Origin: a virus
DNA: 64,000 bases
IMG/VR virus record: IMGVR_UViG_3300030098_004404
Coordinates: 50,601-114,600 of that record
Reading direction: 5' to 3' (one strand)
Under the pieces are notes generated by a model. The model searched no databases and was not told where the DNA came from. It saw only the letters and a program-made list of their open reading frames with translations. Within the stretch, counting starts at the first letter, position 1. Every line of letters starts with the position of its first letter. Of the stretch, positions 18,877-60,799 are shown piece after piece. The translations under genes were made by a program, and so were the position numbers.

Positions 18877-20454
18877 TCAAATTTGTGATACCTGATTGAC
18901 TATTAACGATGTTTTATCTTTCTTAGATGTTTCGCCAATCATTAGTACCGTATTGCCTTCTATCAATAAATCCCTGTGTTTTTCATAACACTCTGGGAAA
19001 ACAGTAATCGAATCAACTGAGCCGCTTCCATCCTCAGCACACAAAAAGGCCATCAATTGGCCGGGGTTTTTACCACGTTTAGTTTTATAAGTTCTAACAG
19101 ATACAATCTGTGCAGCGAGATTCGCTTTACCTGTTATCGTGCCATTTGCTATGTCTTTGCACATATTAGTAGCAACATTTAGTTGTATTCCATCAATTTT
19201 ATCGCAAGTTAATGAACAACTCATATATTTTTCTTCGTCGGTGGCTATTGTAGCGGCTGTATCGTTTAAATCGTAAAACGGATTTTCCAAAGAGTTTTTG
19301 ATATCTAGCACGGTCGGGGTTCTTCTGGAGTTCACCTTTATTGTTTTTAACATATGTGATATTGCATCCGCAAGTCCTTCTGCGTACAGTGCGGGATCTT
19401 GACTGTTATGATTATCCGCTATCGCCTGTTGCTCTCTAGCTGAAAGCTGCTTCCAACTATCGAACTCATACAGCATCTTCTGTCTGCTCTCGGTGTTGGA
19501 CTTCCCATTAAATGCCCCAACAGATATGAGAGATATGACAGAACGCTTATTAAGATTTAATTTGTAAATTATATTTACCAGCGAATCCATCCAGCTATAA
19601 TTTGACACGTCTGTCTCAGACAGCATGTTCTCGATTTTTTCACACTCTTTAATGCCAACGTTCTTGATGTGTCTCATACCAAAGTAGATAACATCCTTAT
19701 CGTTGCTTCTTGTAAAGTTGGTGTGTAGATGCTGTAACCTTGGAGGAAGAATATCTATATCCGATCTTCTGGCATCCATTATAAGTTGCTTCTTCTCGAT
19801 GTCTGGCTTTGGCTTTCTATCTGCACGATTTAGGTATTTCTCATAAAACTTTTTGAGTCTATAGGTTTTACAATAGGCGGACCAGTAGGCGTTGATGGCA
19901 TATGAAACAGCATGAGATTTATTGAACGCATATCTATTGGACTTTTCAATCCAAGAGAAAAGCTCCTCGGCCACCTCTTGTGTTACAATACCCATCTTTT
20001 CCGTTCCCTTTAGAAAGGTCTCCTTAACCGCCTCCATGAGATCCGCTTTCTTTTTACCAATGGCTTTACGCAAGGCGTCCGCCTCTTTAAGATCGAATCC
20101 AGCCAGAACCTGAGCTATCTTCATAGATTGTTCCTGATAAACAAGAACGCCATATGTCTCTTTCAAAATAGGTTCCAAAGACTCATGTAGATACTCCACA
20201 GGACTATTAGGCTTACCAGCCTTTCTATCAGCGTATACCTGCGTCATACTCTTTCCGTCAGCGTCTTTTGCCTTTAGACAACCGGGGCGAATTAGGCTAA
20301 TTAAAGCCGCTAGCTCCTTTACGTTTCTAGGCCTGACTTCTTTAGCCCAATGTTTACCTAGACTAGACTCTAACTGAAAAACACCCTTTGTGTTTCCGTC
20401 ACAGATTAAGTCCCAAACTTTCTCGTCTTCAAAGTTGTTAATATTAAACGACAT
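18877..20454 (-). CDS. dnaE: DNA polymerase III alpha, C-terminal half (split gene)
   Basis: 525 aa. It begins near the DnaE region KGVFQLES and continues through ISLIRPGCL, YGVLVYQEQSMKIAQVLAGF, RKAIGKKK and YAFNKSHAVSYA, all hallmarks of the fingers/thumb part of bacterial C-family polymerases. The C-terminal ~90 residues form an OB-fold. The N-terminal PHP and catalytic palm lie in a separate gene at 22031-23626. ATG at 20454 is chosen over a TTG at 20484; it overlaps the exonuclease gene by 11 bases. No intein residues are seen at its N-terminus. Confidence 0.93.
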   Translation of the reverse strand: MSFNINNFEDEKVWDLICDGNTKGVFQLESSLGKHWAKEVRPRNVKELAALISLIRPGCLKAKDADGKSMTQVYADRKAGKPNSPVEYLHESLEPILKETYGVLVYQEQSMKIAQVLAGFDLKEADALRKAIGKKKADLMEAVKETFLKGTEKMGIVTQEVAEELFSWIEKSNRYAFNKSHAVSYAINAYWSAYCKTYRLKKFYEKYLNRADRKPKPDIEKKQLIMDARRSDIDILPPRLQHLHTNFTRSNDKDVIYFGMRHIKNVGIKECEKIENMLSETDVSNYSWMDSLVNIIYKLNLNKRSVISLISVGAFNGKSNTESRQKMLYEFDSWKQLSAREQQAIADNHNSQDPALYAEGLADAISHMLKTIKVNSRRTPTVLDIKNSLENPFYDLNDTAATIATDEEKYMSCSLTCDKIDGIQLNVATNMCKDIANGTITGKANLAAQIVSVRTYKTKRGKNPGQLMAFLCAEDGSGSVDSITVFPECYEKHRDLLIEGNTVLMIGETSKKDKTSLIVNQVSQI

Positions 20455-21130
20455 ACATATCACCATTAGCGAACGTTTTTTCAAACTTAATTTTTTTAGA
20501 TAGGTTTCTCTGCATCTTTAGGAACTTGATTAAGATGTTCGCCGTATCTTTTACGTCCTGTAGTGCATCGTGAGCATTGTCTTTAGGCATACCAAAATAG
20601 TCTCTCATATAGTCCATGCTATACCCCTTAACATCTGAGTTGTTTTCAAACCAGCAGTAGATATGCTGCATTAGATCCATAGTGAAGATCGGATTGAAAA
20701 TTTTCTGGCGTCCTTTTTTCTCATCGACTGGGCCATACATTTGACACATACGCTCAACAATGGGCATGTCATAACCGTTGATGTTGTATCCAGCAGCAAT
20801 AGGTGCGGAGAAGCTTGTCTTCTTAAAGTTGTACTTGTCACAGAACTGGGCAAACTTCTTCCATACTGTTTTTGGTAGGGGTGCTTTGGCTAAAGCCCCT
20901 CTGGTTTTCCTAGTAATTTCTAGTGCCTCGTCTTCAAGCGGGTCGAATCCAGCAGCGACAGCCTTTTCGTCGTCAATGATCGGCCTGATCTCACTATTGA
21001 AAGTTCCTCCCGGTTGTAAGGTAAGCTTCCGAGCATGAATCGCCACCGCAGCAATTTGTGTTGGTTGACACTTGTGAGGATTTCTGCCTCCGGTCTCAAA
21101 GTCAAATACAATAATGTCTCTATAGTTCAT
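20444..21130 (-). CDS. DnaQ-like 3'-5' exonuclease
   Basis: 228 aa DEDDh exonuclease. Motif I is VFDFETGG (residues 9-16), motif II includes YNINGYDMPIVERM, and motif III is HDALQDVKDTANILIKF. These four acidic residues and His bind the two catalytic metals. It sits between the two halves of the split polymerase and overlaps the C-terminal half, so it is very likely the proofreading subunit. This fits the degenerate PHP domain in the polymerase N-terminal half. Confidence 0.92.
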   Translation of the reverse strand: MNYRDIIVFDFETGGRNPHKCQPTQIAAVAIHARKLTLQPGGTFNSEIRPIIDDEKAVAAGFDPLEDEALEITRKTRGALAKAPLPKTVWKKFAQFCDKYNFKKTSFSAPIAAGYNINGYDMPIVERMCQMYGPVDEKKGRQKIFNPIFTMDLMQHIYCWFENNSDVKGYSMDYMRDYFGMPKDNAHDALQDVKDTANILIKFLKMQRNLSKKIKFEKTFANGDMYVV

Positions 21131-21813: not shown

Positions 21814-22041
21814 TTATCTTTTTGTTTTTAGTTCAATGAATTTGTCAATGGCCTCGTCTAGAGTGTGAAAAAGTCCATGAAATCTGTCTCTGTCCGAGAC
21901 TACTTGGTATTTAGCTCTAGGTACTCCTATTCTGTTTTTTAAGAAATCTTCTAGGTTACACAATGAAACACCTTTAGACTCTATATAGCAGCCAGAATAA
22001 ACCACTGACCTGTATTCTTGTTTAGTGGCCTTAATCAGCAT
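21814..22041 (-). CDS. Hypothetical protein between polymerase halves
   Basis: 75 aa, basic, with one likely beta sheet (SVVYSGCYIESKG) and a C-terminal helix (LDEAIDKFIELKTKR). It overlaps the stop of the polymerase N-terminal half by 11 bases, so it is translated from the same mRNA. I do not recognise the family; similar short basic proteins are common in phage genomes. Confidence 0.6.
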   Translation of the reverse strand: MLIKATKQEYRSVVYSGCYIESKGVSLCNLEDFLKNRIGVPRAKYQVVSDRDRFHGLFHTLDEAIDKFIELKTKR

Positions 22042-23626
22042 TTGAAATCTCCATTATCTTAGATAGTAAATCAATTCCCAACACGTCAAACTTGACATGT
22101 CCCTGAACCTCTAGGTCGCCCATATCAAAGGCGGCAACAGTATCTCCTGACTTATCTTCAGTCATTGGACATACGTGAGCGAGTTTATGTTCCGATATAA
22201 TCACGCCCGCTGGGTGTTTGCCTTGCGACTTATTGGTTCCTTCTATTTTTATAGCCTGCTCAAACAGGTGCGACAGCGGGCCTTCTAGTTCGCCGTCCTC
22301 ATTCATCATGCACCAGTTTTTGAGATTCTCTGGCTCGTTTTCTAGTGTCCATTTTATAATAGACTTGTCTTCCATTAATTCTAGTTGGTCAGATATCTTT
22401 GCTTCGTCTGGGATACTATCTGTTATAGCATTCATTTCTGCAAATGACACAGCATCATTGATTCTTAGTACCTCTTTTACGGCTGCTCTTCCCTGAAGGC
22501 GACCAAATGTGATCATCTGAGCTACATTCTCTTCTCCGTATTTATATTTTATATAGTCAATAACTTCGTCCCTGTGTTCGGCAGGAACATCCATATCAAT
22601 ATCTGGTAGGGAAACGTAGTTTTCTGTGTTTCTTCCCTCATTGTAGAACCTCTCAAAAATCAAATCATACTCAATAGGGTCAACGTCTGTTATACTAAGC
22701 AGGTATGACACCAAGCATCCAGCAGCAGAGCCTCGTCCCGGACCAGCTAACCAACCCTGCTTCTTGACAAAGTTAACTATATCCTGAACTATCAAAAAAT
22801 AACCAGATAGTTCAGCCTTGATAATAACCTTTAGCTCCTGCTTGATTCTCTCGGCGTAAATGTCTTTATCCTGCTCGCTAGAAACTTTATTTTGAGCCTG
22901 TAGCCTGTCTCTCCATCCGTCTCTACAAAGTTGTGTGAGATATTGATCTTCGTCTACTCCTTCTGGACAGTCAAACGCTGGAAGCATCGGCTTTCCAGCA
23001 ACCTCGTAGTCTTCGCACATGCTCGCTATTTTGTTAAGCATATCTATGTCGTTCGTTTTGTTGTTTGGCTCATGTAGATAGAAGCTGTCATTCTCAAAAA
23101 AGTGCTGATTAGCAACCTCTTGATTGTTTTTTAGTAATGAGTTTACCTTCTTCATTGTTGTCTTCATACCTGAGCACAGCATGATCCTATGACAATCCGC
23201 ATCGCTTTTGTCTACATAGTAAACAGCATCATCATTCATAGCCCCATATTCAAAGTGATTGCTTTTAAACAATTTTCTTAGACCGTTTGAGTCAGGCGAC
23301 ACACAAATCAGATTACCCCTTTTGGAAACTTCCTTTAAGACATCCAAGTTCTGATTTGAAACATACTTAATAAGGTCAAACCAGCCATCTTTATTCTTTG
23401 CATATAAAATGTATCCGTCAAAATCACAACCAATGATTGGTTTGACATCATTTTTTCTACACTGCTGATGGAAGTCTACAGCTCCAGCTAGCGTTCCAAG
23501 ATCTGCTATGCCGCAAGCACTATACTCATACTCTTTACATCTTTCCGAAAGCAGGCTGTTTTTGCAAAAACCCTTTTGCAGACTGTAGTGTGTTTTACAA
23601 TTTAGTGGTATCCAATTTGAATTCAT
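22031..23626 (-). CDS. dnaE: DNA polymerase III alpha, N-terminal half (split gene)
   Basis: 531 aa. It contains the PHP domain (residues ~1-210) and the C-family catalytic palm. LAGPGRGSAAGCLVSYLLSI (293-312) and PDIDMD (341-346) hold two of the catalytic aspartates; the third is in VKFDVLGIDL near 514. The protein stops 17 residues later, exactly where the fingers begin in the intact enzyme. The PHP metal ligands look lost: HxH has become KTH (residues 11-13) and the TDHG motif has become ADLG. The remaining polymerase is encoded at 18877-20454. Confidence 0.94.
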   Translation of the reverse strand: MNSNWIPLNCKTHYSLQKGFCKNSLLSERCKEYEYSACGIADLGTLAGAVDFHQQCRKNDVKPIIGCDFDGYILYAKNKDGWFDLIKYVSNQNLDVLKEVSKRGNLICVSPDSNGLRKLFKSNHFEYGAMNDDAVYYVDKSDADCHRIMLCSGMKTTMKKVNSLLKNNQEVANQHFFENDSFYLHEPNNKTNDIDMLNKIASMCEDYEVAGKPMLPAFDCPEGVDEDQYLTQLCRDGWRDRLQAQNKVSSEQDKDIYAERIKQELKVIIKAELSGYFLIVQDIVNFVKKQGWLAGPGRGSAAGCLVSYLLSITDVDPIEYDLIFERFYNEGRNTENYVSLPDIDMDVPAEHRDEVIDYIKYKYGEENVAQMITFGRLQGRAAVKEVLRINDAVSFAEMNAITDSIPDEAKISDQLELMEDKSIIKWTLENEPENLKNWCMMNEDGELEGPLSHLFEQAIKIEGTNKSQGKHPAGVIISEHKLAHVCPMTEDKSGDTVAAFDMGDLEVQGHVKFDVLGIDLLSKIMEISNAD

Positions 23627-50455: not shown

Positions 50456-50649
50456 TATGACACCTCGCAGTCTGGACACTCACAAGCGTCTTGACATATA
50501 CACTCTTGAACTGGGCATGGGCATTCGTTTTCGCATATATCACAAATCACAGGATTCTCCTTTGTAAACATGTTTTTTACTTCGTCTTTATTGATAAATA
50601 GGATTGCACCCACAATCAATACAGCTAAAAAGGGTATTTTAAACTTCAT
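50455..50649 (-). CDS. Membrane-anchored Cys-rich peptide
   Basis: 64 aa. An N-terminal helix (IPFLAVLIVGAILFI) is followed by a short acidic linker and ten cysteines in pairs such as CDIC, CPC, CIC, CEC and CPDC. This recalls metallothionein-like metal binding or dense disulfides. AAGGAT precedes ATG. It resembles the C-terminal part of the protein at 47607-48014. Confidence 0.68.
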   Translation of the reverse strand: MKFKIPFLAVLIVGAILFINKDEVKNMFTKENPVICDICENECPCPVQECICQDACECPDCEVS

Positions 50650-50660
50650 GATAGTTATCC

Positions 50661-51917
50661 TTATATAATAATGTCTGTTAAAACTTTGCCGCCGTCTACG
50701 ATTTCGATAGGTCTTTCGCCCGGAGCCATTAGCTCTTTATCGGCAACTATTCCCAATCTATTGTAGATGGTAGCGGCCCAGTCCTCTATGTTGACTGGAT
50801 TTTGGTCTGGCTCACTAGCAGTGGCGTTTGAGGTTCCATATGTCATTCCTCCCTTGATTCCACCACCAGCAAGCACCGTACTAAATACCTTTGGCCAGTG
50901 GTCTCTTCCTGCACGATTATTAATTTTCGGCGTTCTTCCAAATTCAGAAACAACACAAACCAAGGTGGAATCCAGTAGGCCACGCTGGTCTAGGTCTTCG
51001 ATAAGACTTGCAAACCCCTGATCGAAAGCTGGTAGCTGGCTATTCATACCATTGGCTATGTTGTCGTGCATGTCCCATCCGCCATAGGTAAGAGTAACAA
51101 AACGTGTTCCAAACTCAACCAGTCTTCGGGCAAGAAGCATTCTGGCACCCGCAGTATTTCTGCCGTACTTGTCTCTTGTCTGTGCCGATTCTTTCTCTAT
51201 ATCAAAAGCGTCCTTTGCATTTTGATCTCCTATCAAGCTATATGCACGCTCATAAAAAGAGTTCATCGCCTTTACAGAGTCGGCGTTCTGCTTTTTGTTA
51301 AAGTTGGTATTTACTACATTAAGTACACGCTGTCTTCTTGCAAACCTTTCATCTGGAACCGGAAGTTTCAGATCTCTAACTTGGAAGTCGTTACTGGCAG
51401 GATCAGACCCTAAACCAAACCCAGAATATGAGCTACTTAAATATCCAGTACCTGCAAATTCGTTAGGCTGGTTGGGGATACAGACATACGGAGGAAGGTT
51501 TTTGCGAGGCCCAAACTCATGTGCAACCACTGAACCCATTGATGGGTATTGAAGGGCTGGGCTAGGTCTATAACCAGTAAACATATTGTGTGTGCCACGC
51601 TCATGAGCAGCTTCTCCGTGGGTTAGACTTTTTATAATCGTTAACTTGTCTGTAATCTTAGCGGTTTTCTTCAAAAGCTCGCCCACACGGATACCCGGAG
51701 CGACCGTGTCTATGCTGCCCAACGGGCCACGATACTCAAGAGGAGCGAATGGCTTAGGATCCCATGTTTCCTGATGAGCCATTCCTCCCGGTAAGTATAT
51801 AAAAATTATGCTTTTTGCTGGGCCTTCCACGCTTTCGTAGTGCTTCTGATCGGCCATAGCCAGTGAAGCACCAAAGCTACCTAAAATACCAGCGTGTAAA
51901 AAAGATCTTCTATCCAT
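50661..51917 (-). CDS. DUF1501 family protein, Tat-exported (copy 1)
   Basis: 418 aa. It begins MDRRSFLHAGILGSFGASLA, a twin-arginine (Tat) signal. YGGWDMHDNI and VSEFGRTPKINNRAGRDHWP are DUF1501 signatures; the family has an alkaline-phosphatase-like fold and is often called a sulfatase-like protein in planctomycetes. ATG at 51917 has AAGGAAA upstream; a longer start at 52058 overlaps the next gene by over 100 bases. Probably periplasmic or cell-surface. The biochemical role of DUF1501 is not established. Confidence 0.93.
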   Translation of the reverse strand: MDRRSFLHAGILGSFGASLAMADQKHYESVEGPAKSIIFIYLPGGMAHQETWDPKPFAPLEYRGPLGSIDTVAPGIRVGELLKKTAKITDKLTIIKSLTHGEAAHERGTHNMFTGYRPSPALQYPSMGSVVAHEFGPRKNLPPYVCIPNQPNEFAGTGYLSSSYSGFGLGSDPASNDFQVRDLKLPVPDERFARRQRVLNVVNTNFNKKQNADSVKAMNSFYERAYSLIGDQNAKDAFDIEKESAQTRDKYGRNTAGARMLLARRLVEFGTRFVTLTYGGWDMHDNIANGMNSQLPAFDQGFASLIEDLDQRGLLDSTLVCVVSEFGRTPKINNRAGRDHWPKVFSTVLAGGGIKGGMTYGTSNATASEPDQNPVNIEDWAATIYNRLGIVADKELMAPGERPIEIVDGGKVLTDIII

Positions 51918-51927
51918 TACTATTTCC

Positions 51928-53130
51928 TTACCACATTCTACAAGACCAGTATCGTGCTTTCCATTTAGGCCCCGGGGCCGTGTCGCACTTATGTCTTGCC
52001 CTAAAACTTTTTCTTCTTTCGGGATTGTCTCTTTTGATCTCCATATTAGGATCACCAAAACGAACTATAACAACTTTTCCAGAACCGTTTTTGGTATAGA
52101 CAGCAAACTTCTTTGGGCCATCTGGAGTTCTGAATGGTTTATTTAATGTGACCTTCCTGCCTTGATACTCTGCGGATTTACCTTTGTATAAAAGCGGAGT
52201 GCCGTCCTTTTTGTAGTTACCTTTTCTATTATAGCTAAATCTTTCACCCGTTTTTGGATTTTCATATACATAAGCCGCCTTGGATTTTTTAGGATGTCCC
52301 TTTGGCAGGAGGTCATTGTCCTGTGTATAGGCCGAGTTTGAGGGCTTGCCAGTTCTGAGCAAAGTAAGAAAAGCGTTTACTCTAGCCATAGCCCATCCAT
52401 CTCTAGACATTTTTGGTGCGTGGCTTGTTGAGTAGGCTCCGGCACCCCTACGATACACAGCCTTAAGCATACCAAGAGTAGCCTTTGATCCTTTGCCTTT
52501 GGCGTTATGCTCTTTTACTTTTTTAGAAAGTCTTTCAGTAGTCTTCTTGCTGAACGTAATCTTGCCACTAGGGTTCTTGGCACTGTCTGGCTTGTTTTTC
52601 TTAGATCCCCTTTTCTGATCTTTTTTGGGGGCTGGTGTTCTACGTGGGTCTCCCTTTGGCGGCTTGTCAGCGTTCGCCTCTTCAGCATAAGATGGAGGGC
52701 CAAGTTTCTTTTGTTTCTTCGGCCCCTGTGCTTTCTTTAATTCTTCTGGGCTTGGTCTACCCTCTTTTTCGGTTTTGGCTGGCCTGTAGTCGTCGCCTTC
52801 TCTCTGCTTCTTTTTACGAATGTTTTCCCATAGCCCCGGTTTAGCCACGGAAATATCCCACTCTTCAGTGCTTTCCTGAAAGTCTACATAATCAGCCTCT
52901 GCGGGTACGTAGAAGTTGTCTTCATTTATATCTTCTGTATATCCAAATGTTTCTATGTTGTATTGCATATCGACAGAAGCCGATGTTGACAGCCCTTCAA
53001 GAGCCTTAGACATACAGACCGCTGTTCTTTGTTTTCCGTCTGGAAACTCTTTTGACACCTTGTTGTCTGACATACATCTAGACATAAAGTTTTCTCTAGA
53101 CTCGTCTTCTCTTCTGGAAGGCAGTGGCAT
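51928..53130 (-). CDS. Head-associated virion protein (conserved C-terminal domain)
   Basis: 400 aa. RREDESRENFMSRCMSDNKV near the N-terminus and its matching FPDGKQRTAVCMSK resemble segments found in phage prohead and portal-associated proteins. The middle is Lys and Pro rich. The C-terminus contains DGWAMARVNAFL and VRFGDPNMEIKRDNPERRKS...SCRMW, a recurrent domain in large phage and viral proteins. Likely part of the capsid or a maturation protein. It sits between DUF1501 copies 1 and 2. Confidence 0.68.
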   Translation of the reverse strand: MPLPSRREDESRENFMSRCMSDNKVSKEFPDGKQRTAVCMSKALEGLSTSASVDMQYNIETFGYTEDINEDNFYVPAEADYVDFQESTEEWDISVAKPGLWENIRKKKQREGDDYRPAKTEKEGRPSPEELKKAQGPKKQKKLGPPSYAEEANADKPPKGDPRRTPAPKKDQKRGSKKNKPDSAKNPSGKITFSKKTTERLSKKVKEHNAKGKGSKATLGMLKAVYRRGAGAYSTSHAPKMSRDGWAMARVNAFLTLLRTGKPSNSAYTQDNDLLPKGHPKKSKAAYVYENPKTGERFSYNRKGNYKKDGTPLLYKGKSAEYQGRKVTLNKPFRTPDGPKKFAVYTKNGSGKVVIVRFGDPNMEIKRDNPERRKSFRARHKCDTAPGPKWKARYWSCRMW

Positions 53131-53148: not shown

Positions 53149-54360
53149 TTAAAATAGTTCTTTTATTATTTTTCCGGAATTAGCTATCTTCATAGGTCTT
53201 CCGCTTTTACTTGTATAAGTTGTTTGCAACGAAATACCAAGTGCCTTGCAAACGGAAGCCATGACATCCTGAGATGTATATGGTTCGGTTTCAACACGAG
53301 TACCGTCTGAGTTGGTTTCCCCAACAGCTATGCCGCCCTTCATGCCAGCACCACCAACAACGACACTCCAGCTTCGTGCCCAGTGGTCACGGCCAGCGTT
53401 TTGGTTGATACGTGGAGTTCTACTAAATTCGCCCATCCATATGATAGCCGTATCCTCTAGTAGTCCTCTTTGCTCTAAGTCCTCTACTAAGGCACTCATG
53501 CCCTGATCGAGCATAGGTAACTTTGTATCTCTTAATGTTGGGAAGATGTTTTGATGGTTGTCCCATCCTCCTAAGCCCACTTCAATAAAAGGCACACCAA
53601 CTTCTACTAGCCTTCTGGCCATCAGACACCCCTTACCGAAACTATTGTCTCCATATCTTTCTTTGACGTTTTCTGGCTCACCTTCAACTTTCATAGCATC
53701 CATCTCTGAGCTTGTCAAAACATTAAATGTTTTACGTAGAACCTTTTGGTGATCCTTTGCTAAAGCTCCTCTGCTACTATTGATAAAGTTAGTTTCTATT
53801 ATGTCTAGTGCCTGTGCCCTCTGATAAAATCTTTGATCTATTTTCATATTTAGATTTCTGATTCTACCATCGCTGTTTACAACGAACGGCGAATATTCCG
53901 CACCTAAGAATCCAGCACCAGCACTTGGGCCATTTACAGAGACAAACTGAGGTATCATAAGTTCTGGTTTTTCAAGCTCTTTAGATAACACAGCACCGTA
54001 ACTAGGATGAACCATGTTCGGGTTTGGGACATAGCCTGTGTGCATGTAGTATCTGCCACGCATATGATCAGCTTCACGAGTACTCATACTACGAACAATC
54101 GCCATGTTATGCATTTGCTTTGCCATCAGAGGCATGTGTTCACTTATTTGAACATCACCACTGGTTGCGATTGGCTTAAACGGGCCTCCCGTTGGTGCAT
54201 CTGGTTTTAGATCCCAAATATCCATAGTAGAAGGGCCACCTCCCATCCATAAGAGAATGGCCGATTTACCGTTTTTCTTTAGCTGTTCTTCATTGGCCTT
54301 TAAGGTGCTAGTAAGACCCAACACGCTGGCCGTAGTAGCTAAAAAATCTCGTCTTCTCAT
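53149..54360 (-). CDS. DUF1501 family protein, Tat-exported (copy 2)
   Basis: 403 aa. MRRRDFLATTASVLGLTSTL is a twin-arginine signal with RRRDFL. LLWMGGGPSTMDIWDLKPDA, VGLGGWDNHQNIFP and GEFSRTPRINQNAGRDHWAR are the DUF1501 family motifs. It overlaps copy 3 by 4 bases. Sequence differs from copies 1 and 3 across most of its length, so these are diverged paralogues rather than recent duplicates. Confidence 0.93.
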   Translation of the reverse strand: MRRRDFLATTASVLGLTSTLKANEEQLKKNGKSAILLWMGGGPSTMDIWDLKPDAPTGGPFKPIATSGDVQISEHMPLMAKQMHNMAIVRSMSTREADHMRGRYYMHTGYVPNPNMVHPSYGAVLSKELEKPELMIPQFVSVNGPSAGAGFLGAEYSPFVVNSDGRIRNLNMKIDQRFYQRAQALDIIETNFINSSRGALAKDHQKVLRKTFNVLTSSEMDAMKVEGEPENVKERYGDNSFGKGCLMARRLVEVGVPFIEVGLGGWDNHQNIFPTLRDTKLPMLDQGMSALVEDLEQRGLLEDTAIIWMGEFSRTPRINQNAGRDHWARSWSVVVGGAGMKGGIAVGETNSDGTRVETEPYTSQDVMASVCKALGISLQTTYTSKSGRPMKIANSGKIIKELF

Positions 54361-55604
54361 AGTATTGCCTTTGCTTCTCCCTCTAGTAAATATCTCGGCC
54401 TTCCTCCATTATCTATTCTTTGTATAGACTTATCTATACCAAAGTGGTCAAACAGAGTCGCCTGAAGATCTAATGGCCCTACAGGTTTTTGTGTTGGACT
54501 GTATGACCTATCGGACTCTCCAATAGTTCTACCGGACGCATAGTTTCCACCAGCCATGAGCATTGGAGTAATAGATGGCCAATGATCCCTTCCGGAATTT
54601 GCATTTATTTTCGTTCTGCCAAATTCCCCCGTGACAACTAGCAGTATCTTTTTATTGAGACCACGAGACCATACGTCTTCAAGGAATCCAGATATAGCCT
54701 TGTCGATTGGTGCGACTCTGGTTTTGAGAGAGTTAGATATGTTGCTATGCATATCCCATCCACCATAATGAACTGTTATGAATCTCGTCCCATGTTCTAC
54801 TAGCCTTCTAGCAAGAATCATTTGCTCGCCAATATCGTTAGCTTTGGTAGATCCATACATCGCCCTAGTTTTATCGGACTCTTTGTCTGTTGCGAAAGCT
54901 TCTTTTGCGGATCCTAAGATTACATCGTAAGCCTGCCCCTTGTAAAAATCAACAGAGTCCGCACTTGAGCCAGCCACACTTCTGGCGTCTAGCCCTCTGA
55001 GTAGGTTCTTTCTGGTGGAAAATCTGTCTAGCTCAACTCTTGGTGTAAGGTTATCTTTGTTAGAGGGGTCAAATGGCTTATATGCTCCACCAAGCCAAGC
55101 ACCTTCGTCTCCTTCGATTTTGCCCTGTTTAACATAAGAGGGAACTCCGTTCTCTGGATGGTTTGCTCCGTACACAGCAGAAACCACTGAGCCAAAGGAT
55201 GGATACTTTGCTATGGAGGTCGTGGTTCTCTCTGGGTTATAGTGACCGGTCATCATGTAATGAGTGCCCTGTCTATGCGAAGAATCTCTATGAGAGAACG
55301 AGTTTACTACATTTAGTTTTTGAGTATGCTTGGAAAGCTCAGACCAATCGGCACCTAGATTTATGTTAGTCTTAGGGTCGTAGATAGATCCATTTACAGG
55401 TCTCCATTCTACCGGCACATCTTCTGTTGGTGCGTGAAAAGTTTCAAACTGAGTCGGCCCTCCTCCTAGCCAAACCCAAACAACAGACACGTCTTCACTG
55501 GCTTCCTGTGCTATTGCCGCTTCTGAAAGACCAGCCGCACTCATGGCCGTACCTATTCCACCTATCCTTAAAAAATCTCTCCTGTTAAAAGTGAAGTCTA
55601 TCAT
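54357..55604 (-). CDS. DUF1501 family protein, Tat-exported (copy 3)
   Basis: 415 aa. FNRRDFLRIGGIGTAMSAAG is a Tat signal (RRDFL). WVWLGGGPTQFETFHAPTED, YGGWDMHSNISNSL and GEFGRTKINANSGRDHWPS are DUF1501 features. ATG at 55604 with AGAGGG seven bases upstream is preferred over a TTG at 55622. With copies 1 and 2 it forms a tandem set broken only by the head-associated gene. Confidence 0.93.
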   Translation of the reverse strand: MIDFTFNRRDFLRIGGIGTAMSAAGLSEAAIAQEASEDVSVVWVWLGGGPTQFETFHAPTEDVPVEWRPVNGSIYDPKTNINLGADWSELSKHTQKLNVVNSFSHRDSSHRQGTHYMMTGHYNPERTTTSIAKYPSFGSVVSAVYGANHPENGVPSYVKQGKIEGDEGAWLGGAYKPFDPSNKDNLTPRVELDRFSTRKNLLRGLDARSVAGSSADSVDFYKGQAYDVILGSAKEAFATDKESDKTRAMYGSTKANDIGEQMILARRLVEHGTRFITVHYGGWDMHSNISNSLKTRVAPIDKAISGFLEDVWSRGLNKKILLVVTGEFGRTKINANSGRDHWPSITPMLMAGGNYASGRTIGESDRSYSPTQKPVGPLDLQATLFDHFGIDKSIQRIDNGGRPRYLLEGEAKAIL

Positions 55605-55626
55605 AATAAACCCTCTCTGCAAAAAA

Positions 55627-55819: not shown

Positions 55820-56494
55820 TTAACCTACCTTCTCCGGAAATAAGTCCGGAAACAAATTATACTTTACATTTTCCCAAAGTGCCCCAGAAATCACCATCGA
55901 CGCATCATTGTCTGAGGGGTAGTGTACACCCTGTAGACACCTAGCGTAGCCAGCCAGCCCTATCCTCCGAAAGAAGTAAGAACTATACTGTGGATACATC
56001 GCTGCCATTTGATAGGCCGCAAACGCAGCATAGGCAGTGTGCCCAGAAGGATATGCTGGTGTATGATGCGAGTCTGTTTCTAGTATGTTTATTTTTATGC
56101 CAAAGTGAGGTGCAAGCTGCTCTGGTCTAGGTCTATTGTAGATACCTTTTAAATTGGTGATTACCGGATCAAAGGTTTTATAGAAAAGATCTCTAAATTC
56201 CTGCCTATCAAAGCTGAGGTTTTTCTCCTCTAGGAAGGGCATAAAAAGATCTAGCGGATCTTTGTCAACAAGCATAACCAAAGAAACCTGTTCCTCTGTT
56301 AGTCTCTGGGTTATTTGAGACAAAAACTTTAGTTCCTTGAGGGTTATGGCAGAGGTATTCTTAGGTGGTTCCGGTAAAACGGTTTTCCATCCTATTGTTA
56401 TCTCGTCGCTTACCTCCAAAGATTTTGGTGATTCGGTGTATTTTATTGAATCAATCTTTTTGGAGACTTCTGAAACTATGTTGTTGGGATCCAT
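55820..56494 (-). CDS. PAP2-type phosphatase
   Basis: 224 aa. The three phosphatase motifs are present: KGIYNRPRP (K116, R121, P124), YPSGH (H152), and R185 with GVHYPSDNDAS (H191, D195). The family hydrolyses phosphate monoesters or lipid phosphates. No clear signal peptide, although N-terminal residues are hydrophilic. It may act on a lipid-linked sugar phosphate. A loose TGTGTATA motif precedes it. Confidence 0.9.
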   Translation of the reverse strand: MDPNNIVSEVSKKIDSIKYTESPKSLEVSDEITIGWKTVLPEPPKNTSAITLKELKFLSQITQRLTEEQVSLVMLVDKDPLDLFMPFLEEKNLSFDRQEFRDLFYKTFDPVITNLKGIYNRPRPEQLAPHFGIKINILETDSHHTPAYPSGHTAYAAFAAYQMAAMYPQYSSYFFRRIGLAGYARCLQGVHYPSDNDASMVISGALWENVKYNLFPDLFPEKVG

Positions 56495-59371: not shown

Positions 59372-59890
59372 TTATTTAGATTTTTTCTGAATTTTTTCTG
59401 AGGCTTCTATCAAGTGTTTCGCAGATAGGTCGTCTTTTGAGATGAATATAAGGTCAATCTTTTCTTCAATCATCTTATATATATTCACGTAGTTTGGGGA
59501 GCTACTGCACATCTTTGGGTTGGAAATGTCTGAAAAATATATCTTTTCTATTCCACACTGGTAAAGCATCTGTAGGCAAGATAGGCATGGAATGGCCGTT
59601 ATGTATGCCGAGGCACCTAATGTAGATCTACCAATCCTTACTGAATTATATATGGCGTTTGCTTCGGCGTGTATCATGAAGGGATATTTTTCGGGTCTGG
59701 TGTTTGGCAAGCAGTCGTCGTCTATATCTCTTATAAAGCCATTATAACCAGACGATATTACCGTTCTGTCTTTTACTAGAACACACCCGCATTGCGTTTG
59801 TGTATCGTGGCTTCTTCTAGACCATAGAGTAGCCTCTTCAAAAAATATGTTGTCCCAATCGCTTGGTTTCTTTTTATTTAATATTACCAT
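59372..59890 (-). CDS. dCMP/cytidine deaminase
   Basis: 172 aa. HAEANAIYNSVR contains the catalytic Glu and zinc His, and IPCLSCLQMLYQCG supplies the two zinc Cys. CVLVKDRTVISSGYNG is the typical N-terminal strand pair. It deaminates dCMP to dUMP, which ThyX then methylates. ATG at 59890 is used: further in-frame codons upstream fall inside the tmRNA gene and are not protein-coding. Confidence 0.92.
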   Translation of the reverse strand: MVILNKKKPSDWDNIFFEEATLWSRRSHDTQTQCGCVLVKDRTVISSGYNGFIRDIDDDCLPNTRPEKYPFMIHAEANAIYNSVRIGRSTLGASAYITAIPCLSCLQMLYQCGIEKIYFSDISNPKMCSSSPNYVNIYKMIEEKIDLIFISKDDLSAKHLIEASEKIQKKSK

Positions 59891-59901
59891 AATCCTAGCA
59901 G

Positions 59902-60242
59902 TGGAGGCGGCGGGAATCGAACCCGCGTCCTGCATTGATTCCATAAAAACATCTACATTGTTAGCCTGCTGTAATCGCACAACAAACAAAGCTATCCGAT
60001 TATCGGAGTCAGATGGATTACCATCATCTCACGATTAATTCAAGTAGTGAGTCCTCTATCTAGGAACGGCCTAGCCCGTTCATGATTGGGCATGAAGGCT
60101 CATGAAGCCCCCTGCTGCTACGCAGCGAGTGCGAAATTCTCTTCGACACTTAAAAAAATATAATCGGTTTTTATACTGGCCAACCGATCAACCAGTCAAT
60201 GCAGTCTTTACTTCCACAATCAGTCGAAGCCTAATCGCCCCC
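59902..60242 (-). ncRNA. ssrA: tmRNA (transfer-messenger RNA)
   Basis: A 341-base gene. Its 5' GGGGGCG pairs with 3' CGCCTCC to form the acceptor stem (one G-U), and GGTTCGATTCC near the 3' end is the T-arm. The tag reading frame resumes at a GUC and reads V-E-E-N-F-A-L-A-A then UAG. The ending ALAA is the proteolysis signal. CCA is not encoded. It frees stalled ribosomes and tags proteins. The ENFALAA end recalls planctomycete tags as I remember them. Confidence 0.93.
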
Positions 60243-60244
60243 CC

Positions 60245-60799
60245 TTATCTTACTTGTATTTCCATGTCCAGTAATCTTTCTATTTCCTTTGGTATTTTCT
60301 TTATTATAGTATGTCTATCGGGCTTTGTCAACTCCTTTCTTGAAGAAATTTCCACAATTCTTGCGTTTAGTACTTCTGGATCGTACATTGTTTGTGTTCT
60401 CTTTATCTGTTTAGAGATCACAACCCTTTCACATTTATCTGACTGGTCATAGTAATGAGTATACCATTTGTCTTTATAAAGATACGGAGAGATGCCGCTT
60501 GTTTTATTGAGTCCATAATTATTATTATGAAGAGTAAAATAGTCTATAACTACATAGTCAGAGCCTTGATACCAATTTCCGGTAAGCTCACCTTCTTTTA
60601 TCTCTGGTAGTAATACATTCTTGCGATACTCCCAGAATATAACTTGGGTGAATTGCTTTTTAATCTCTCCGCTGTCACTATCTCTAAAATACTTATGATT
60701 AATCTCTATCATATCTACGTAGTCAACGACAAAAGTTTTTTCTTTTGTCCCAGCGTCCAAGAAGACAATCAGTGTCAATATTTTGACTACGTTGAGCAT
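60245..60799 (-). CDS. Hypothetical protein with signal-like N-terminus
   Basis: 184 aa. The N-terminus MLNVVKILTLIVFLDAG looks like an uncleaved signal or membrane anchor. The rest is alpha/beta with many Tyr and Lys residues. The exact promoter for the tmRNA (60303-60331) lies inside its 3' end. I do not recognise the family. Confidence 0.6.
   Translation of the reverse strand: MLNVVKILTLIVFLDAGTKEKTFVVDYVDMIEINHKYFRDSDSGEIKKQFTQVIFWEYRKNVLLPEIKEGELTGNWYQGSDYVVIDYFTLHNNNYGLNKTSGISPYLYKDKWYTHYYDQSDKCERVVISKQIKRTQTMYDPEVLNARIVEISSRKELTKPDRHTIIKKIPKEIERLLDMEIQVR
60303..60331 (-). promoter_or_regulatory. Exact consensus sigma70 promoter for tmRNA
   Basis: Minus-strand TTGACA (60326-60331), 17-base spacer and TATAAT (60303-60308). 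It lies inside the 3' coding end of the preceding gene, about 60 bases before the mature tmRNA 5' end, leaving a leader that RNase P would remove. Confidence 0.88.

Follow-up and report, generated by a model that had tools for sequence, protein, structure and literature searches.

A phage tmRNA gene with a VEENFALAA tag and a valine resume codon, and its circularly permuted relatives

What is a tmRNA gene whose tag frame opens on a valine codon doing in a phage genome, to which host does it point, and how is it related to viral genes that have the same tag and the opposite order of parts? Neither phage tmRNAs nor valine resume codons are new. A 2022 survey found tmRNA in 402 of 18,146 phage genomes, with 53 of the 133 unique ones called two-piece (PMC9004378); the resume codon of Helicobacter pylori tmRNA is GUA, for valine, and E. 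coli tmRNA in which the resume codon has been replaced by GUA or GUC works, the resulting tags being less effective (PMC2862035). Permuted tmRNA genes are known from three main bacterial clades, the Alphaproteobacteria, Betaproteobacteria and Cyanobacteria, and from mitochondria (PMC11915505). The locus considered here lies in a stretch of 64,000 nucleotides, referred to below as the window, which is positions 50,601 to 114,600 of the 138,542-bp IMG/VR virus record IMGVR_UViG_3300030098_004404.

ARAGORN places a one-piece tmRNA, the sole one that it finds in the window, at 59901-60242 on the minus strand, with the tag VEENFALAA* and a coding part at gene positions 96-125. The Rfam tmRNA model RF00023 matches 59899-60242 of the same strand over its full length (model positions 1-374; 107.7 bits, the gathering score being 47; E 4.2e-41), and this is the only match above the cut-off in the whole record. 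The original prediction of a phage-borne tmRNA with both ends of the tRNA-like domain is thus borne out by both programs, with coordinates correct to within 1 nt. Both ends are present and the gene is co-linear with the model, i.e. not permuted. Two weak RF00023 matches elsewhere, at record positions 126,866 and 127,095 (14-16 bits), correspond to tRNA-Met and tRNA-Glu genes in a tRNA cluster. That cluster, Arg(tct)-Met(cat)-Ile(tat)-Glu(ttc) at 126.8-127.2 kb of the record (L002, L003), matches one in a related contig, L019, that holds a permuted tmRNA. The features of the locus and its surroundings, in window coordinates, are as follows.

59902..60242, minus strand: one-piece tmRNA (ssrA) gene, to discriminator A73 (ARAGORN, RF00023)
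60236..60242, minus strand: acceptor stem, 5′ strand GGGGGCG (sequence, RF00023 alignment)
59903..59909, minus strand: acceptor stem, 3′ strand CGCCUCC (with G3-U70), then A73 and encoded CUG (sequence, RF00023 alignment)
59910..59926, minus strand: T arm, GCGGGUUCGAUUCCCGC (RF00023 alignment)
60161..60196, minus strand: pseudoknot 1, stems ACUGG/CCAGU and UGAUCGGU/ACCGAUUA (stem 1 by covariation, stem 2 from the sequence)
60118..60147, minus strand: tag frame VEENFALAA and UAG (ARAGORN, sequence)
60145-60147, minus strand: resume codon GUC (sequence)
59372..59890, minus strand: dCMP deaminase gene, 11 nt downstream of the tmRNA (PF00383, phrog_174)
60245..60799, minus strand: 184-aa ORF with no family match, its stop TAA (60245-60247) 2 nt upstream of the tmRNA
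50661-52058, 53149-54360 and 54357-55622, minus strand: three tandem DUF1501 (PF07394) genes (profile match)
55820-56494, minus strand: PAP2-family gene

Read directly from 60147 to 60118, the tag frame is GUC GAA GAG AAU UUC GCA CUC GCU GCG UAG, preceded by UUAAGU and ending in a hydrophobic ALAA followed by the stop, so that the tag and the GUC resume codon are both as had been predicted. The acceptor stem has the G3-U70 pair by which alanyl-tRNA synthetase identifies its substrate, and the discriminator A73 is at 59902. The encoded 3′ end reads CUG, so that CCA, which the gene does not encode, must be added post-transcriptionally. The tmRNA strand folds better than dinucleotide-preserving shuffles of it (z -4.4). 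In pseudoknot 1, all 12 sequences compared can form the 5-bp first stem, with changes on both sides in three of the five pairs; all 60 cells are paired and 11 are double-changed, versus 2.8 in shuffles. Such covariation is the mark of selection at the RNA level. The gene is a complete one-piece phage tmRNA, and probably a functional one.

The gene ends 11 nt before the dCMP deaminase start codon at 59890, and its embedding in a string of genes makes it probable that the RNA is cut from a longer transcript. In addition to the deaminase, the window has phage-type replication genes for a DNA polymerase, a DnaB-like helicase, a primase, a UvsX-like recombinase and ribonucleotide reductase. The polymerase is in two ORFs, 18877-20484 and 22031-23626 on the minus strand, which correspond to consecutive portions of phrog_405 and are separated by other ORFs, possibly due to an insertion or to a split gene. 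Homologues of the DUF1501 genes occur near the tmRNA in three related contigs (L064, L087, L036), and a PAP2 homologue is upstream of it in five others (L257, L258, L262, L265, L266), at a distance of 8 nt in four cases.

DNA encoding the VEENFALAA tag is present in 16 viral contigs besides the window's own record. By RF00023, 12 of the 16 are one-piece (two of these being cut by contig ends), one of which, L093, is a near-copy of the window (99.7%). The remaining four, L019, L046, L096 and L263, are permuted two-piece genes in which 131-133 nt separate the tag from the 3′ tRNA-like end upstream of it; their scores with the permuted model RF04321 are 85.6-91.7 bits. A wider scan for the junction added at least two further permuted relatives, L361 with the tag AEENFALVA (94.4 bits) and L378 with GVENYAMAA (82.6 bits). 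The range for the six is accordingly 82.6-94.4 bits, above the gathering score of 47, and in all of them the 3′ tRNA-like end is upstream of the 5′ end. Over the region read, L096 and L263 do not differ, which leaves five distinct permuted sequences among the matches listed. Tag DNA and the layout of pseudoknot 1 are common to one-piece and permuted genes, the 5′ halves and tags of which align readily. Resume codons differ among these related genes, being Val in VEENFALAA, Ala in AEENFALVA and Gly in GVENYAMAA. Permuted tmRNAs of other types are also frequent in IMG/VR viral contigs, with at least 100 stretches showing a permuted-junction pattern (e.g. L286, L289, L299, L287, L294 and L301).

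The structure proposed for the permuted RNAs comprises the acceptor stem, T stem, a helix joining the two pieces, pseudoknot 1, a tag hairpin, a further hairpin and a second pseudoknot. Under it, 93.9% of cells are paired in the five permuted genes versus only 34-51% for slid versions, a comparison that is tilted toward the structure by its having been drawn from L019, itself among the five. Both-side changes number 11 pairs versus 6.7 in shuffles, in a count for which pseudoknot 2 and the hairpin of the acceptor piece are partly misaligned. The covariation of the helices supports a permuted RNA. The two pieces are separated by a spacer of 11-13 nt that contains CCRAACUA.

The genomic settings are pertinent to how the two gene orders are related. 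The phage of L019 and that of the window have 78 reciprocal best hits with a mean amino-acid identity of 51.5%, in long collinear blocks. Directly 3′ of the permuted tmRNA in L046, L096 and L263 is a dCMP deaminase gene (58-61% identity by tblastn), an arrangement also seen in the window and the one-piece contig L037; the permuted genes of L019, L361 and L378 are among tRNA genes, and the neighbours in one-piece relatives vary between PAP2, DUF1501 and tRNA genes. Hits to the query RFEGIG, for an ORF upstream of the permuted genes, mark position only, as the frame contains stops.

Trees were built from the 5′ half and the tRNA-like 3′ end, 160 columns in all from which the tag except for its resume codon was left out, the host sequences being confined to planctomycetes. 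In these the permuted relatives and the one-piece phage genes form one clade, with support of 100/93 in the first tree and 100/99 in the second, apart from other permuted viral tmRNAs, several of which match the beta model and one, weakly, the alpha model. Forcing all permuted genes into one clade costs 24 and 19 log-likelihood units in the two trees. A permutation that arose separately from the known permuted lineages is what these comparisons favour, short of proof. On the account that we consider reasonably probable, a one-piece tmRNA was permuted in place within one phage family, independently of the three bacterial lineages, giving orthologous loci with both gene orders and with the same tag and neighbour. 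The alternative, that the permuted relatives took their gene order by recombination from known permuted tmRNAs of alpha, beta or cyanobacterial type, is possible and in our judgement rather doubtful. The joint permuted clade that it would predict is not rejected by the AU test (p-AU 0.094 and 0.277) on 160 columns, for which reason a new phage-borne permutation is favoured, not established, and three of the five distinct permuted copies do match alpha_tmRNA weakly, at 53-63 bits; however, it is with the one-piece phage genes that the 5′ half, including pseudoknot 1, and the tRNA-like 3′ end, taken together, group (100/99), and the 11-13 nt CCRAACUA spacer differs from those of the other permuted viral genes that were read.

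Which host such phages infect is suggested by several features together. Among 84,980 species, VEENFALAA tag DNA occurs in one, the Planctomycetaceae MAG SKZY01000144.1 (L123), in a chromosomal setting. Resume codons in 121 planctomycete tmRNAs are Ala in 108, Gly in 8, Val in 4 and Asp in one, in keeping with the expectation that Ala or Gly is usual and Val unusual, for which H. pylori is the precedent. Genes of the DUF1501 family are present in 72 of 99 planctomycete genomes versus 2 of 14 controls, and the third of the window's copies has no match among 50,697 phage records. Taken together, the tag match, the valine resume codons and the DUF1501 genes give indirect support for a planctomycete, or one of its near relatives, as the most likely host, to which the window tmRNA thereby offers a clue. 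The original prediction had come to the same host by a different route, the likeness of the tag to AEENFALAA, taken to be a planctomycete tag; that tag is in none of 392 planctomycete genomes, nor was it found as a planctomycete tag in the literature searched, so the conclusion is supported, though not by the reason given for it.

Whether the permuted form might itself be a feature of planctomycete hosts was also considered, and the idea was rejected. Among 22 planctomycete genomes with a weak or no RF00023 match, none has a permuted tmRNA, and a wider search encountered one in a single genome of 384, G190 (L305, C27:8814-9015; 87.2 bits). As G190 carries a standard tmRNA as well, tagged ANSNFALAA, and its permuted gene is without the VEENFALAA tag, the latter is likely to be on a viral or contaminant contig. 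No literature naming both permuted tmRNA and planctomycetes was found among what were mostly openly readable papers.

The other requirement for activity is SmpB. As had been stated earlier for the window, no SmpB gene is seen: PF01668 has no match in the 138.5-kb record, which may be incomplete, or in 17 related viral records, several of these records being fragments, and the same profile matches 10 of 14 control genomes. With no viral SmpB, that of the host is required if the RNA works. The phage thus appears to bring its own ribosome-rescue RNA and to rely on host SmpB, the compatibility of which with the phage RNA is assumed here.

The reading that we prefer, at a probability of about 0.85 for the whole, is of a functional tmRNA of a tailed phage with a planctomycete-type host, which acts with host SmpB and is permuted in related phages. 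Counting against it are the poor effectiveness of tags begun with valine resume codons in E. coli (PMC2862035), the lack of a viral SmpB, the unrejected joint clade of permuted genes and the position of L123 outside the phage clade. The RNA would be transcribed within the gene string, trimmed by host tRNA-processing enzymes, supplied with CCA by host enzymes and charged with alanine. Together with host SmpB it would then free ribosomes stalled during infection and add (A)VEENFALAA to their products for proteolysis. Relatives of the phage have this tmRNA in circularly permuted form, in several of them at the corresponding genomic place, and would read it out as a two-piece RNA.

An unlikely alternative is that the gene is a passenger acquired from a host, e.g. 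by way of an attachment site, and has no role in infection. The preference of genomic islands for ssrA as an integration site (PMC4131195) and the tag match to a planctomycete chromosome would suit a passenger; a gene that is complete, not an attachment-site fragment, that shows covariation and tag conservation over many phages, and that has been kept through permutation and beside neighbours as varied as PAP2, DUF1501, tRNA and dCMP deaminase genes, would not. Very unlikely, too, is a decoy that titrates SmpB and so inhibits host trans-translation, as has been suggested for the tRNA-like domain of mycobacteriophage DS6A, a phage whose tag-less tmRNA-like RNA reportedly inhibits tmRNA (PMC4131195, PMC11915505); the present gene has an intact tag frame, resume region and pseudoknot 1, all of them conserved. 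That the permuted copies are artefacts of assembly is scarcely credible, for, even though they come from metagenome contigs only and L046 has a scaffold gap directly after the tag, the six contigs give five distinct sequences, in which the helices covary, one short spacer recurs and the neighbouring genes are intact.

If the preferred reading holds, permutation, known from few bacterial groups, seems to have occurred inside a phage family too. A phage lineage in which both gene orders occur, tag and downstream gene being shared, would allow stepwise comparison and a laboratory test of permutation, and its closely related genes show drift of the resume codon between Val, Ala and Gly.

Comparison with known systems shows the particular mix of features involved. 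One-piece tmRNAs of the mycobacteriophage Bxz1 group, Bacillus phage G and Streptomyces phages such as Annadreamy and Jay2Jay are likewise in large phage genomes, but differ from the window gene with its VEENFALAA and GUC. The tRNA-like 3′ end of the Streptomyces phage copies is ~91% identical to that of the window over ~33 nt, and among 50,697 phage records there is no similarity beyond the tRNA-like end. As candidates for the closest cultured phage, the matches, mostly to Streptomyces phages, were set aside, being to the tRNA-like domain only, with the DNA polymerase at ~30% identity. H. pylori tmRNA also has a valine resume codon, but its tag is different and it is bacterial, not phage. SKZY01000144.1 has the same tag, GUC codon, one-piece form and pseudoknot-1 layout as the window gene; it differs in being chromosomal, beside a gene that is RluA-like by sequence, and in falling, despite its identical tag, outside the phage clade in the first tree. 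With the two-piece tmRNAs of Alphaproteobacteria, Betaproteobacteria and Cyanobacteria, and that of phage Melnitz, which is of the alpha type, the order of 3′ piece, spacer and 5′ piece is common to the permuted relatives only, in both of which a hairpin starts the acceptor piece and a pseudoknot ends the coding piece. What sets the permuted relatives apart from the known two-piece tmRNAs is what they have in common with the one-piece phage genes, namely the tag, pseudoknot 1 and the neighbours.
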